A stretch of DNA of 64,000 nucleotides from contig NZ_JAUKPO010000007.1 of assembly GCF_030503435.1 (NCBI RefSeq), positions 275,474 to 339,473 of the forward strand. The letters run 5' to 3'. The position numbers were made by a program, and so were the translations under genes. The notes below the pieces were generated by a model. It had not been told where the DNA came from and did no database searches. It worked only from the letters and a program-made list of their open reading frames with translations. Source of the stretch: Rhodocytophaga aerolata. Its GTDB lineage: Bacteria; Bacteroidota; Bacteroidia; Cytophagales; 172606-1. Below, piece after piece: positions 25,223 through 30,304 of this stretch; position 1 is the stretch's first letter; every line of letters begins with the position of its first letter.

Positions 25223-25624
25223 TTATTGCTTAGTACTCTGCTGCGATTGTCCGTCGCCTGAATTCTTCCCTGAAGCGTTATTGGCATCCTGCCCATCACT
25301 ATCTTCTACATTTGCATTGTTGCCATACCCTGAGGCATTGGTTCCGGATTGGTTTTTCTGAATAGAATCCATTTCAACTCCGGGAGTAGCTACTGAGTCA
25401 GAAATCTGGCCTGCACCACCGGGCTTCCCATTACTGCTTCCGCCAATGGAAAGTGTATCAGCAGGATCATCGCCGGCATTATCCATATCCGAGCCATTTA
25501 CAACATCCGAACTATTGTCTACAGAGCTTTCCTGGCTGCCACATGCAGAAAAGAAACCTGCCAATACAATAGCTGCTATTGCCGTTCCTAGTTTAAGTTT
25601 ATTCATAAGATGATTTATTTCCAT
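25223..25624 (-). CDS. Small disordered lipoprotein
   Basis: A 133-residue lipoprotein; start at 25624 or at the internal Met (25606). The lipobox ends at Cys28 (GFFSACGSQ). The mature chain is almost entirely Ser, Asn, Asp, Gly and Gln (VDNSSDVVNGSDMDNAGDD, KNSGDGQSQQSTKQ) and is predicted to be disordered and acidic, with no aromatic core. It is the last of four lipoprotein genes on this strand, 128 bases after the previous one, and may have its own promoter. No known domain; role unknown, but its location next to an ECF sigma circuit suggests an envelope function. Confidence 0.7.
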   Translation of the reverse strand: MEINHLMNKLKLGTAIAAIVLAGFFSACGSQESSVDNSSDVVNGSDMDNAGDDPADTLSIGGSSNGKPGGAGQISDSVATPGVEMDSIQKNQSGTNASGYGNNANVEDSDGQDANNASGKNSGDGQSQQSTKQ

Positions 25625-25998: not shown

Positions 25999-26298
25999 TT
26001 ATTGTTTTGTTTTGCTACTGGCCCGCATGGCACTATCCGTAGACATTCCTTTATCTATTACAGGGTTATTATCTAAGTCTGGATTTGCAGCAGGTGTACT
26101 GTCTGCTCTAACGCCTATAGGAGCCGTAGTATCTTCGTTGTTTGATTGTGGAAGTGTTGCTTCATTATCAAAATTCTTATCACTCTGGGTGTCATAGTCC
26201 CGGCCTCCGCAAGAAGTTATACTTAAGCTGGCAATTAATGCCAAGAAAGCAGCATTGTATATAAAAGCAGACTTGATTTTTTCTAATGAGCGTTTCAT
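25999..26298 (-). CDS. Small disordered lipoprotein
   Basis: A 99-residue lipoprotein with lipobox at Cys30 (LSITSCGGRD). The mature part is rich in Asp, Asn, Ser, Thr and Pro (QSNNEDTTAPIG, NPDLDNNPVIDKG) and has no predicted fold. It begins 26 bases after the stop of the upstream lipoprotein gene and is followed 12 bases later by another, forming a three-gene unit. Function unknown. Confidence 0.68.
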   Translation of the reverse strand: MKRSLEKIKSAFIYNAAFLALIASLSITSCGGRDYDTQSDKNFDNEATLPQSNNEDTTAPIGVRADSTPAANPDLDNNPVIDKGMSTDSAMRASSKTKQ

Positions 26299-26324: not shown

Positions 26325-26594
26325 TTACTTTTTATTAACTGTATCAGCAGACATTTGCCGTCCGGTACCGCTTGTGTCAGTATCTGCACGGCCCACAGCT
26401 TCATCGGTGCCTGCACGGCCGGCTTTTCCAGTAGTATCCACCGTAAAATCAGTTTGCTCCTCGCCTAAGTTACTATCCTGCCCCTGCTGGTTCTGACTAC
26501 TATCGCAGGAATACAAACCGGTAGAAATCATTAGCATACTCATGCCTACCCATTTTACCCAAGATGTTCTTGTATTTTTCTTAAATAGTTTCAT
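26325..26594 (-). CDS. Small disordered lipoprotein, first gene of the minus-strand set
   Basis: An 89-residue lipoprotein. Its basic N-region is long (MKLFKKNTRTSWVKWV) and the lipobox ends at Cys30 (TGLYSCDSS). The mature part is low-complexity Gly/Thr/Asp (GKAGRAGTDEAVGRADTD). The CDSS after the lipobox is shared with the two plus-strand lipoproteins near the sigma factor. A GAAACT-N15-GTAT pattern, typical of ECF promoters in spacing, lies about 40-65 bases upstream. Probably the promoter-proximal gene of a unit with the next two. Confidence 0.68.
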   Translation of the reverse strand: MKLFKKNTRTSWVKWVGMSMLMISTGLYSCDSSQNQQGQDSNLGEEQTDFTVDTTGKAGRAGTDEAVGRADTDTSGTGRQMSADTVNKK

Positions 26595-27162: not shown

Positions 27163-28269
27163 TTATTTATGCTGATAGACTTTTACATTAAATACCAGAT
27201 TTTGCAGATACTTTATTTGTTCAGGTCGCTTTAGCTCTTTAATAGAATTTTTGGCGGGCAAGATAATTGGCTCAGGCAAAGAATCTCTAGGTATAGAATC
27301 AATTACTTCTAAAAGATATTTAGCCTTAATGGCAAATGCCGCACCTTCTGCATCCGTATGTTTACCTGAGATAATACCTACCAAATTTCCTCGGTCGTCC
27401 AGAAGAGGGGCACCACTATTGCCTGGGTTTACAGGTATAGAAATCTGATAAGCAGCCGTATCTCCCTCAAATCCGGTTTTAGAGCTGATGGTACCGTCTC
27501 CATACACCATGTCTTCCCGGGGAAAGGCCAACGTATACACTGGTTCTCCCAGATCAGATTCTCTGGTCTTAAAGCCATAAGGTATTTTCATAGATATAGG
27601 AAAATCCGGATCAGTAATTTTGAGCACTGCCAGATCGCTGAATTTATCAATATATACCTCTTTTGCCTTGTAGCGGCACAATTCATTTACTTTAGATTCT
27701 ACATATACTGAATCTGCCCCGGCTATTACGTGCCTGTTGGTGACAATGTATCCGTTTGAGGAAATTAAAAAACCGGTAGCGCTATAAGTAACTGGCTTAT
27801 AATCAGATGTATTACTGGATGTGGCGCTAACTATGTTTTTCTGGGTATTTTTAATAGAATTCAGCTCCCGTTTCAACTCTTTGTAATAGCTGATCTGACG
27901 GTTTTCCAGAGAATGAAGATAATCAACGGTGAATAGGGTACCCATAACTGTAATAACTGCTACGGAAGCAGCAACAACCATAGTGGGTAAATGTTTTTTC
28001 CAGAAAACCTGTATGCTGTATTTAGCAAACCTGCTCCTGTTAGCAAAGCTTTCAGTTTCCATTTCCTCGTGAAACTGGTTAAGCTTTTGCTTTAAGCCTG
28101 TTCGTTTTCCATACAAGGTAAAACTTTCCATCAGTAGCTTATGGCTACTTACTTCTATCGCCAGCTGAGGATCTTGTTTTATTTTTGTTTCAAACAAATC
28201 TGCCTCTTCCTTGCTTAATGTACCTGCTAAGTACTGTTCAATCTGTTCAATGTTACTCATGTTTACCAT
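27163..28269 (-). CDS. Anti-sigma-like / trypsin-like serine protease membrane fusion
   Basis: A 368-residue single-pass protein. The cytosolic N-terminus (1-90) resembles Bacteroidota anti-sigma domains (IEQIEQYLAGTLSKEEADLFETKI is split), one membrane helix is at about 94-115, a short coiled coil at 118-146, and a periplasmic HtrA/trypsin-like domain at 155-330. The triad is complete: His180 (TNRHVIAG), Asp212 (FSDLAVLKI), Ser285 (NPGNSGAPL). There is no PDZ domain. The start may be 28269 or the Met at 28260. It lies 21 bases after an ECF sigma gene, the usual anti-sigma position. I infer it holds the sigma factor and senses or processes envelope signals; direct proof is lacking. Confidence 0.82.
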   Translation of the reverse strand: MVNMSNIEQIEQYLAGTLSKEEADLFETKIKQDPQLAIEVSSHKLLMESFTLYGKRTGLKQKLNQFHEEMETESFANRSRFAKYSIQVFWKKHLPTMVVAASVAVITVMGTLFTVDYLHSLENRQISYYKELKRELNSIKNTQKNIVSATSSNTSDYKPVTYSATGFLISSNGYIVTNRHVIAGADSVYVESKVNELCRYKAKEVYIDKFSDLAVLKITDPDFPISMKIPYGFKTRESDLGEPVYTLAFPREDMVYGDGTISSKTGFEGDTAAYQISIPVNPGNSGAPLLDDRGNLVGIISGKHTDAEGAAFAIKAKYLLEVIDSIPRDSLPEPIILPAKNSIKELKRPEQIKYLQNLVFNVKVYQHK

Positions 28270-28290: not shown

Positions 28291-28860
28291 TTATTCACTA
28301 TGATAACTGGAGAAAAAAAGCTTTTTTAACCGCATCAGGCATTTATATTTTTGATTTTTGGCATTGTCCGTATTTGTATATCCCATTTTTTCCATAATCT
28401 GCTGCATAGTAAAATTATGAATAAAAAAATCTTCCAGGATGGTGCGGCAAGGTTCGCCTAACTTTTCCAATGCCTGTTTCATAACTTTAAATTGCATATC
28501 CTTGTCTTCAATCTCTGCATCCTCTTTCACGAAAGGAATAAAACTCTCAAAGTCTTCAATCTTACCAACGTACCTGCTTTTTTCAGCCAACTTTTTCAAC
28601 CACAACCGGCGGCTTACCGAATAAATGTATGTTTTTACTTTGCAGGTAAGCTCAAACCCAGGAATTTGCAGATTTTCATACAGCACAATAATAGATTCCT
28701 GATAAATATCTTTGGCTTCCTGCTCGGTTCCGCTGTTGTTGCCAATAAAATGCAGCACCATGGGAAAGTACGTTCTATACAATAAATTTAATGCTTTGTC
28801 ATCTCCCCGTTTAAGCGCCAAGAGTAGCTCTTCATCAAATTCAGGCAATACTTTATTCAT
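28291..28860 (-). CDS. ECF RNA polymerase sigma factor
   Basis: A 189-residue sigma-70 factor with only regions 2 and 4. Region 2 is at about 25-90 (YRTYFPMVLHFI, EAKDIYQESIIVLYENL) and region 4 at about 130-185 (LGEPCRTILEDFF, FTMQQIMEKMGYTNTDNAKNQKYKCL). The tandem gene 21 bases downstream encodes an anti-sigma-like protease. A GGTTAC-N15-GTAT motif faces it, ending about 12 bases from the ATG, so autoregulation with a very short leader is likely. Two divergent lipoprotein genes carry the same motif and are probable targets. Confidence 0.93.
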   Translation of the reverse strand: MNKVLPEFDEELLLALKRGDDKALNLLYRTYFPMVLHFIGNNSGTEQEAKDIYQESIIVLYENLQIPGFELTCKVKTYIYSVSRRLWLKKLAEKSRYVGKIEDFESFIPFVKEDAEIEDKDMQFKVMKQALEKLGEPCRTILEDFFIHNFTMQQIMEKMGYTNTDNAKNQKYKCLMRLKKLFFSSYHSE

Positions 28861-28871
28861 TAAATTTGCAT

Positions 28872-28898
28872 TAATACACTAAGGTAGGAATTGTAACC
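28872..28898 (-). promoter_or_regulatory. Predicted autoregulated ECF promoter of the sigma/protease operon
   Basis: Minus strand: GGTTAC at 28898-28893, 15 bases, GTATTA at 28877-28872. Hexamer and spacer match the two plus-strand copies. The ATG is 12 bases below the -10 region, implying a nearly leaderless mRNA. Confidence 0.6.
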
Positions 28899-28919
28899 TG
28901 TAAAAAATAAATCTTTTTT

Positions 28920-28948
28920 GGGTTACCTTCGTTAGTTTTCGGTATAAA
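28920..28948 (+). promoter_or_regulatory. Predicted ECF promoter of lipoprotein gene at 28993
   Basis: GGGTTACCT from 28920, then GTATAAA at 28942-28948, with GGTTAC (28921-28926) separated from GTAT by 15 bases. CCAAAATTT follows at 28950. The same string order occurs before the next lipoprotein gene. Confidence 0.7.
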
Positions 28949-28992
28949 GCCAAAATTTATTAAACCTTTAACCTTAAAACTTGACAATGACT

Positions 28993-29202
28993 ATGAAAAA
29001 AGTAATGTATGCAGCTTTGTTTGTTCTTGGAACACTTAGCTTTTCTGCCTGCGATAGCTCCACAAGTTCAACCACTGAGTCTGACGAAAGAGTAATCGAT
29101 AGAGACACTGTTGGAACAGAGGTAGAAGTTGAAGAAACAGTTGTAGAAACAGACACCAGCACCAGAACTCAAACAATGGAAACTGATACAACAAAACAAT
29201 AA
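28993..29202 (+). CDS. Small disordered lipoprotein, predicted sigma target
   Basis: A 69-residue lipoprotein starting at MKKVMYAALF; earlier in-frame starts at 28981 and 28987 are possible but less typical. The lipobox ends at Cys20 (LSFSACDSSTSST). The mature tail is acidic and Thr/Glu/Val-rich (TVGTEVEVEETVVETDTSTR). It is a paralogue of the next gene: both have MKK, a hydrophobic stretch, then ACDSST at the same position. An ECF-type promoter motif lies 45-73 bases upstream. No fold is expected; function unknown. Confidence 0.75.
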   Translation: MKKVMYAALFVLGTLSFSACDSSTSSTTESDERVIDRDTVGTEVEVEETVVETDTSTRTQTMETDTTKQ

Positions 29203-29228
29203 AATAATATATTGTACTCTGATATAAC

Positions 29229-29261
29229 AAAAAAAGCCGGTATTCTATACCGGCTTTTTTT
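29229..29261. terminator. Bidirectional terminator between the paired lipoprotein genes
   Basis: A7-GCCGGTAT, loop TCT, ATACCGGC-T7; perfect 15-base arms (29229-29243, 29247-29261). It separates the two lipoprotein genes, so each needs its own promoter. Confidence 0.92.
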
Positions 29262-29287
29262 ATTGTAAAAAATATAAATAATCCGTT

Positions 29288-29316
29288 GGGTTACCTGTTT
29301 TGATTTATTGTATAAA
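29288..29316 (+). promoter_or_regulatory. Predicted ECF promoter of lipoprotein gene at 29354
   Basis: GGTTAC at 29289-29294, 15 bases, GTATAAA at 29310-29316, followed at once by CCAAAATTTT. Shared with the upstream gene: TGGGTTACCT, the 13-base spacer to GTATAAA, and CCAAAATTT. It overlaps an in-frame upstream start, so the true start is 29354. Confidence 0.7.
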
Positions 29317-29353: not shown

Positions 29354-29536
29354 ATGAAAAAGATTTTATTCGTAGCACTACTTGCCTTCACTACTTTAGG
29401 TTTCACGGCTTGCGATAGCTCAACCACCACTACTAACGATGAGTCTACTGATACAACTACTGTAGAAACAGCTCCTGAAGAAATTACTCCAGCTGATACT
29501 ACTTCTATGTCTGCAGACACAACTAGCGCTCAATAA
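29354..29536 (+). CDS. Small disordered lipoprotein, predicted sigma target
   Basis: A 60-residue lipoprotein starting at MKKILFVALL, chosen because the predicted promoter lies over any earlier start. The lipobox ends at Cys20 (LGFTACDSSTTTT). The mature 40 residues are almost wholly Thr, Ser, Asp, Glu, Ala and Pro. Clear paralogue of the preceding gene and under the same promoter motif. A perfect terminator follows. Function unknown; surface tethering is possible but not shown. Confidence 0.75.
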   Translation: MKKILFVALLAFTTLGFTACDSSTTTTNDESTDTTTVETAPEEITPADTTSMSADTTSAQ

Positions 29537-29603: not shown

Positions 29604-30002
29604 TTATCTATCTACAGTCAGGTAGTTGATCTGCAAATCATTCTGGAACTTCTGGATCAAATCCTGTTGAAAAAGATTAATAATGCCTCTTTCTTTCGCT
29701 TCAGAAGCAGGGCTGTGATGGCTGGCTTCAGCAATAGCTTTCAGGATACTTACAAGGTGTTCATACTCAGGGCTTGGGCCATGTTCTTTAAAAATATCCA
29801 TAGCTTTAGCATATACGTATTCTACCGTGTTGTCTTTTTGAGCTTCATATTTAAACGACCATACAATATCTTTGGCCCAGCTATGGTTCCTTACTATATG
29901 TTCCAAAGTTGCCACTTCTTCTCCTTGCACCACTCCATCAGCTTTGGCAACGGCATAAATGAGCTCACCAAACGCTTCGTATAATTTTTCTTTCGTAACC
30001 AT
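29604..30002 (-). CDS. TerB-like cytosolic protein
   Basis: A 132-residue all-helical protein with the TerB-type opening ELIYAVAKADGVVQGEEVATLEHIV (split, about 13-37), where the acidic DGVVQGEE loop is typical of metal-binding TerB folds. A second similar helical unit ends near 110 (AIAEASHHSPASEAKERGI). The family is linked to stress and phage/tellurite responses, but role here is unknown. It stands alone. Confidence 0.75.
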   Translation of the reverse strand: MVTKEKLYEAFGELIYAVAKADGVVQGEEVATLEHIVRNHSWAKDIVWSFKYEAQKDNTVEYVYAKAMDIFKEHGPSPEYEHLVSILKAIAEASHHSPASEAKERGIINLFQQDLIQKFQNDLQINYLTVDR

Positions 30003-30304
30003 TCGTGTAAATTTTTTGCCTTTTATCTGAAGTGAATATACTTTGTAACCTTCATTTTCACAACTTATCCTAAGTGAATCTGTTGATTAAGTTATATATA
30101 GTTAGCTATCAACAAATAAAAGTTGGATGAAGCTTTATTTAATAATTCATATAAAAAACTGGACAAACGGTAATGAGTTTGCGTAAATATCTTACATAGG
30201 TTTTTTATAGGCTGAAAATCAGGCAGCTATATAAATCTTTTCTATTTTATTGTTGTTATTCATACACTGTACTACATTTAGCCAAACTTTAATGAATATA
30301 GCAT
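30003..30304. other. Intergenic region between TerB-like gene and thiL
   Basis: 302 AT-rich bases between divergent genes. A GGTTAC on the minus strand (near 30045) is not followed by GTAT at 15 bases, so I do not call it a sigma target. No thiamine-riboswitch-like sequence is recognised before thiL. Confidence 0.4.

Follow-up and report, generated by a model that had tools for sequence, protein, structure and literature searches.

Autoregulation of ECF sigma factors is textbook knowledge, an autoregulated bipartite promoter being typical of these regulators even if not universal, and the boxes of many ECF groups follow a GGAAC / GTC consensus; envelope stress control is less well known outside Proteobacteria. 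The closest known system to the locus described here is that of sigmaE, RseA, DegS and RseP in E. coli (PMC8103513). Accounts from Bacteroidota include the dual-membrane anti-sigma pairs of Bacteroides, such as Dma1 (PMC12596196), an anti-sigma of P. vulgatus with a predicted outer-membrane beta-barrel at its end (PMC9308784), and a survey that finds class I anti-sigma domains next to just 6% of the ECFs of Bacteroidetes (PMC7406223). Among the matches listed in the open-licence literature, no title or abstract start describes the fusion or the motif reported below; the system may nonetheless figure as a group in the ECF reclassification.

The window, that is the whole stretch of 64,000 nucleotides of Rhodocytophaga aerolata DNA that was analysed, carries an ECF sigma gene followed by the gene of its partner protein, two small lipoprotein genes and three promoter-like sites, with the following coordinates:

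28291..28860, minus strand: ECF sigma factor of 189 aa, with matches to TIGR02937 and Sigma70_r2
27163..28269, minus strand: partner protein of 368 aa, with a predicted anti-sigma domain, membrane segment and trypsin domain
28993..29202, plus strand: small lipoprotein A of 69 aa, lipobox FSAC, tail rich in Thr, Ser, Asp and Glu
29354..29536, plus strand: small lipoprotein B of 60 aa, lipobox FTAC, tail rich in Thr, Asp and Glu
28871..28898, minus strand: promoter-like site of the sigma operon, -35 GGTTAC at 28893-28898 and -10 GTATTAA at 28871-28877
28921..28948, plus strand: promoter-like site of lipoprotein gene A, GGTTAC at 28921-28926 and GTATAAA at 28942-28948
29289..29316, plus strand: promoter-like site of lipoprotein gene B, GGTTAC at 29289-29294 and GTATAAA at 29310-29316

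It can be held with good confidence, on comparative sequence evidence, that the three sites are promoters of one ECF sigma factor, serving its own operon and the two lipoprotein genes, and that this sigma would be restrained by the fused anti-sigma-like/protease partner encoded behind it. The sigma protein scores 63.5 bits against TIGR02937 (cut-off 42.9, residues 23-180) and thus belongs to the ECF superfamily; its Pfam match is limited to region 2 (Sigma70_r2, 25.5 bits over a threshold of 24), and no region 4 Pfam model matched. Its start codon lies 10 nt past the -10 element, so that the transcript would be nearly leaderless if that element is the promoter.

All three GGTTAC-N15-GTAT copies reported in the initial annotation are present, each with a 15-base spacer (cores at 28898-28874 on the minus strand, 28921-28945 and 29289-29313 on the plus strand), and all fit inside 446 bp. 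The spacers, which had been called identical, are so in length, whereas their sequences are unrelated; the extension of the two lipoprotein copies to TTGGGTTACCT, GTATAAA and CCAAAATTT is borne out, and the sigma-side copy consists of AGGTTACAA and GTATTAA. The lipoprotein genes, also described as divergent, are both divergent from the sigma operon but lie in tandem relative to each other. Three copies in the window compare with 0.09 expected, and at least three were found in 0 of 100 shuffles. Between the sigma site and the divergent lipoprotein A site lie 22 bp of A+T-rich DNA (28899-28920), with the two -35 boxes turned towards each other, and facing pairs of this kind also recur in other families.

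The conservation of the sigma-side site was evaluated on loci drawn from named records and other genomes, including 80 fetched from one match list, which comprised 48 of the 50 outside-family matches at 43% identity or more together with 32 weaker ones that were picked. The 128 loci were reduced to 120, the window's own included, after removal of one without a sigma gene and of seven others (five duplicates, one broken frame, one masked). With a rule asking for GGTTAC and a GTATWAA-like -10 element (at least six of seven letters) within 220 nt, the motif is found upstream of the sigma gene in 104 of 120 loci, among them the window, while mononucleotide shuffles average 0.1; a comparable site is thus kept in relatives, and in 78 of the motif-bearing loci all seven -10 letters agree. 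It occurs in 55 of the 60 loci with a protease-type partner and in 49 of the 60 without one. The region 4 helix KYKC is present in all 104 motif-bearing loci, and the motif accompanies it in 104 of 116 loci with the helix and in none of the four without it, a comparison among related loci and not 120 independent tests; by the rule used the motif is absent from 16 of the 120 loci, 12 of which have the helix. In one incomplete genome (L029, G002:C119) the sigma gene has a broken frame, although its partner gene and the promoter-like sites are still present; an assembly error may be responsible.

These upstream sites also bear on the nature of the element. GGTTAC-N15-GTAT could be the binding site of a transcription factor instead of a sigma promoter, a reading that draws on the difference between its boxes and the GGAAC / GTC consensus. 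The motif, however, stands upstream of sigma genes in one fixed direction with a spacer of 15-17 nt, and the start codon, as chosen by script, follows the -10 element at 10-16 nt in 62 of 104 loci and at no more than 25 nt in 91 of 104, distances that would leave many of the transcripts almost without a leader. As the motif is, moreover, associated with the sigma gene itself and with sigma-bearing genomes, the transcription factor reading is very improbable.

A whole-genome scan, which had been proposed as a check of the motif, gave a divided answer when applied to the 9.07 Mb of the window genome (202 contigs) with the pattern read backwards as control. The short form GGTTAC-N15-GTAT has 24 sites against 27 for the reversed control, which is chance level, and of the 21 sites beyond the window trio 14 fall inside open frames of at least 250 codons; as a genome-wide signature the short motif was therefore rejected. 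Once WAA is added the pattern becomes specific, with five GGTTAC-N15-GTATWAA sites against none in the control: the three of the window, one on contig C111, 40 nt ahead of a DUF4349 lipoprotein gene, and one on contig C134 that lies opposite a 407-codon open frame and is chance-like. In eight genomes of the family the same form has 34 sites against 5. Allowing one mismatch gave nothing above control in either the window genome (13 sites against 19) or G004, a genome of the same genus (17 against 20), and since the relaxed pattern adds nothing the regulon looks very small. Four of the five sites in G004 precede the sigma gene, two small lipoprotein genes and a DUF4349 lipoprotein gene, as in the window genome, and the sites of lipoprotein genes A and B each have a counterpart there. 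A four-promoter regulon is predicted, with its fourth member, the DUF4349 lipoprotein gene, elsewhere in the genome. The chance frequency of the short core could suggest that the three window copies arose by chance or by local duplication; their unrelated spacers, the 0 of 100 shuffles and the retention of the sites at counterparts in many genera leave this explanation practically no credence, the comparative counts already refuting it.

Among the neighbouring genes, a TerB-like gene (29604-30002, minus strand) was considered as another target and rejected, since the only near-match, at 30022-30050, has two mismatches, and no motif stands just upstream of its homologue in G004 (L249). Three further small low-complexity lipoprotein-like ORFs lie beyond the sigma operon (25223-25624, 25999-26298 and 26325-26594, all on the minus strand), with no N15 motif nearby within two mismatches; the genome of the same genus (L026) has two small lipoprotein-like ORFs at that place. 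The two window lipoproteins score 23 and 30.2 bits against the PG1828 family model (NF050142, cut-off 50) and are not assigned to that family.

The motif follows the presence of the sigma across the order. Among 146 genomes of the Cytophagales, with presence defined as a match of at least 44% identity, the 55 with the sigma contain 113 N15-GTATWAA sites, a figure that counts sigma promoters too, compared with 26 for the control, while the other 91 contain 26 against 70; the genomes are related, so that a p-value for this comparison overstates independence. The system is widespread in Cytophagales, and an enrichment seen only in sigma-bearing genomes links the motif to the sigma in the way expected of a regulon.

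The genes behind such sites were examined in 40 stretches, of which 34 have non-sigma sites in genomes with the window-type sigma (type I, below), three lie beside sigma genes and three come from genomes without that sigma; the stretches were selected and not drawn at random, and some belong to closely related pairs such as G005/G006. Stretches and family loci together gave 79 distinct sites, of which six were assigned to sigma genes by script and 73 were left, four of the latter (L081, L223+, L224-, L225+) being sigma promoters by inspection. A lipoprotein-like ORF begins within 110 nt at 41 of the 73 sites by script, compared with 87 of 4000 positions picked at random within those loci; L218, L220 and L227 also precede lipoproteins, as judged by eye, and none of the sites from genomes without the type I sigma (L221, L222, L226) precedes one by script. 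Most of the 41 ORFs encode short lipoproteins of 56-92 aa with simple tails, and sites before small lipoprotein genes occur in six families (f1, f4, f10, f11, f14 and f21, with spacer 16 in f4). DUF4349 was recognized in six scanned target proteins (L076, L098, L103, L213, L218, L227) and also, at L040 and L057, in divergent ORFs close upstream of the sigma gene, which no exact motif faces. A YfbK/VWA lipoprotein is found at +187 from the site in G005 (scanned, L095) and in G006 (by eye, L102). The initial proposal that one sigma acts on its own and neighbouring promoters therefore gains comparative support from the 104 of 120 loci, the N15 enrichment and the recurrence of lipoproteins.

The sigma genes fall into two types. 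Type I sigmas are 44-100% identical to the window protein and are followed by a partner with the trypsin Ser motif; in the 60 loci of this kind, four of which have variant Ser motifs counted as protease-type, the spacer is 15 in 43 and 16 in 12, and the motif is absent in 5. In the 60 loci where no protease-type partner was seen, four of them (L052, L053, L160, L176) with an ORF below 200 aa read as the partner, in some cases because the contig or locus stops there, the spacer is 16 in 47 and 17 in 2, and the motif is absent in 11. Most of these non-protease loci have a type II sigma, 33-41% identical to the window protein, and the gene behind many of them is, as judged by eye, presumably FtsX-like. 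The window genome carries both types, type I with N15 in the window and type II on C134 (57455-57970), where an N16 site lies 23 nt before the gene; at this paralogous locus (L157, G000:C134:56050-58300) the partner is a 299-aa protein without a protease domain and the gene behind it is taken, by eye, to be FtsX-like. The recognition helix AKxxKYKC is common to both types, which fits a shared -35 box.

This resemblance gives some ground for supposing that the window sites are read by another sigma or sigmas, for example the type II paralogue, with the window genes being cross-regulated: the two types share both the helix and the -35/-10 boxes, the type II sigma has its own site in the same genome, and some type I genomes combine an N16 sigma promoter with N15 targets (L148/L198, L149/L199, L121/L227). 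On the other side, 47 of the 49 motif-bearing loci without a protease-type partner have spacer 16 whereas the window sites have 15, and the N15 enrichment follows the presence of type I, so that cross-regulation is judged unlikely, and reading by the sigma of the window is preferred.

Within that preferred reading, it is hypothesized that a single base pair of spacer keeps type I and type II apart. In family f4, eight of nine type I sigma promoters are N16, and four small-lipoprotein promoters of that family are N16 as well. Against the hypothesis, a strict coupling of spacer and sigma is ruled out by several loci. In f4 itself the sigma promoter of L139 is N15, and the N16 sigma promoter of L121 goes with an N15 DUF4349 target (L227). 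In f11 the sigma promoters of L148 and L149 are N16 with a -10 element one letter off while their lipoprotein targets (L198, L199) are N15, and L146 has an N16 sigma site with an N15 site on the opposite side. Because a type I genome can pair an N16 sigma promoter with N15 targets, the regulons are not told apart by spacer length alone. Of the 50 motif-bearing loci without a protease partner at spacer 16 or 17, 48 have a linker of 42 aa between sigma regions 2 and 4; in type I the linker measures 47-51 and 53-56 aa at spacer 16 and 48-55 aa at spacer 15, and owing to this overlap linker length is not claimed as the cause of the spacer. N16 sites elsewhere in the genomes precede varied genes; those in G049, G029 and G108 (L228-L241), 6 of 14 of which stand ahead of proteins that look large and secreted when judged by eye, possibly represent a different regulon.

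The product of the gene that had been annotated simply as a protease is, from its predicted domains, a fusion in which an anti-sigma-like N-terminus is joined to a DegS-like trypsin domain without a PDZ domain. Its predicted layout is the following:

residues ~1-75: anti-sigma-like domain
residues ~97-115: membrane segment, then a helical linker
residues ~160-325: trypsin domain
C-terminal end: VFxVKVY-like

Helices are predicted at 4-14, 20-32 and 34-76, and the first 65 residues match the start of the non-protease partners of type II sigmas (hhalign probability 97.8, E 1e-12). The anti-sigma model NF052375 gives weak, below-cut-off matches in the window protein (E 0.0049), L041 and L063 and no match in L033, the best relative reaching 38.1 bits against a cut-off of 100, and zf-HC2 matches weakly one of the 16 members scanned. 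A hydrophobic peak at ~97-115 is the basis of the predicted membrane segment; the structural model has a pLDDT of 71.9, falling under 50 over 70-125 and 150-160, which comprise this segment and part of the linker. A Dma-type dual-membrane anti-sigma was rejected as a class for the protein, its C-terminal part being a trypsin domain and not an outer-membrane beta-barrel.

The C-terminal part matches Trypsin_2 with 78.9 bits and constitutes, by its trypsin fold and H/D/S triad, a serine protease domain of the HtrA type. The best structural matches of the predicted model are DegS folds lacking the PDZ domain (E 6e-12), and no PDZ family appears among the matches of the 16 members scanned; the score of 62.2 bits against a cut-off of 422.95 places the protein outside the DegS equivalog. 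The invariance of the catalytic residues H180, D212 and S285 in 60 of 60 relatives, together with the DegS folds as the closest ones, makes it seem that catalysis is selected. The trypsin domain might nevertheless not be the trigger: the partner would then be an ordinary anti-sigma, with the domain as a folded periplasmic sensor or a protease acting on other targets, and other enzymes would release the sigma. The missing PDZ domain, the lack of a known ligand and the existence of the related type II partner family without a protease domain speak for this view, and the invariant triad and DegS-like fold speak against it; it is a serious alternative, although credited with somewhat less than even weight. 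A VFxVKVY-like sequence stands at or near the chain end in most of the 60 relatives, and might act as a peptide that the protein itself supplies to its protease domain.

In the favoured model, the sigma would bind the GGTTAC-N15-GTATWAA sites and transcribe its own operon and the two small lipoprotein genes, whereas the N-terminal domain of the partner would bind the sigma and hold it inactive. By analogy to sigmaE/RseA/DegS/RseP, the trypsin domain would be activated by an envelope signal and cleave the periplasmic linker, either in the same molecule or in an adjacent one. RseP, of which the genome encodes a homologue (267 bits, over cut-off), and cytoplasmic proteases would then finish the release, and the free sigma would raise its own level and that of the lipoproteins. 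The most far-reaching version, in which the partner is a one-piece RseA-DegS, an anti-sigma with its own site-1 protease, the small-lipoprotein regulon is order-wide and one base pair of spacer separates it from a sister sigma with the same boxes, is tentative and somewhat doubtful.

The locus offers a defined promoter-like signal and a compact predicted switch, with protease and anti-sigma part in one chain, and through it both DUF4349 lipoproteins and small low-complexity lipoproteins acquire a predicted regulator. With spacers of 15 and 16 bases at two sigma genes in a single genome, the idea that promoters are chosen by spacer length can be tested directly.

The known systems share individual traits with this one. 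Like the E. coli sigmaE system (PMC8103513), the locus combines an ECF sigma, a membrane anti-sigma-like partner, a DegS-like protease domain and an RseP homologue in the genome, the sigma gene has a promoter-like site of its own, and the likely targets are envelope genes; unlike in E. coli, the anti-sigma-like domain and the protease form a single polypeptide without PDZ, the boxes are GGTTAC / GTATWAA, and the targets found are mostly small and DUF4349 lipoproteins. With the Bacteroides dual-membrane pairs (PMC12596196) it has in common a Bacteroidota ECF sigma and an unusual, long anti-sigma tied to the envelope, whereas the C-terminal part is a trypsin domain here and a predicted beta-barrel in the P. 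vulgatus protein (PMC9308784). The SM6 promoters of F. psychrophilum are likewise a Bacteroidota ECF promoter class that includes a sigma/anti-sigma operon, but their -10 region holds a conserved CGT box and their targets include type IX secretion genes (PMC9723704). In IutY, too, parts of an ECF signalling chain are joined in one protein, in that case sigma and anti-sigma (PMC7593790), while here the fused parts are an anti-sigma-like domain and a protease. The system differs from the known ones in that an anti-sigma-like domain is fused to a protease, in its pair of boxes and in its predicted regulon of lipoproteins, DUF4349 proteins among them, its predicted control being RseA/DegS-like.
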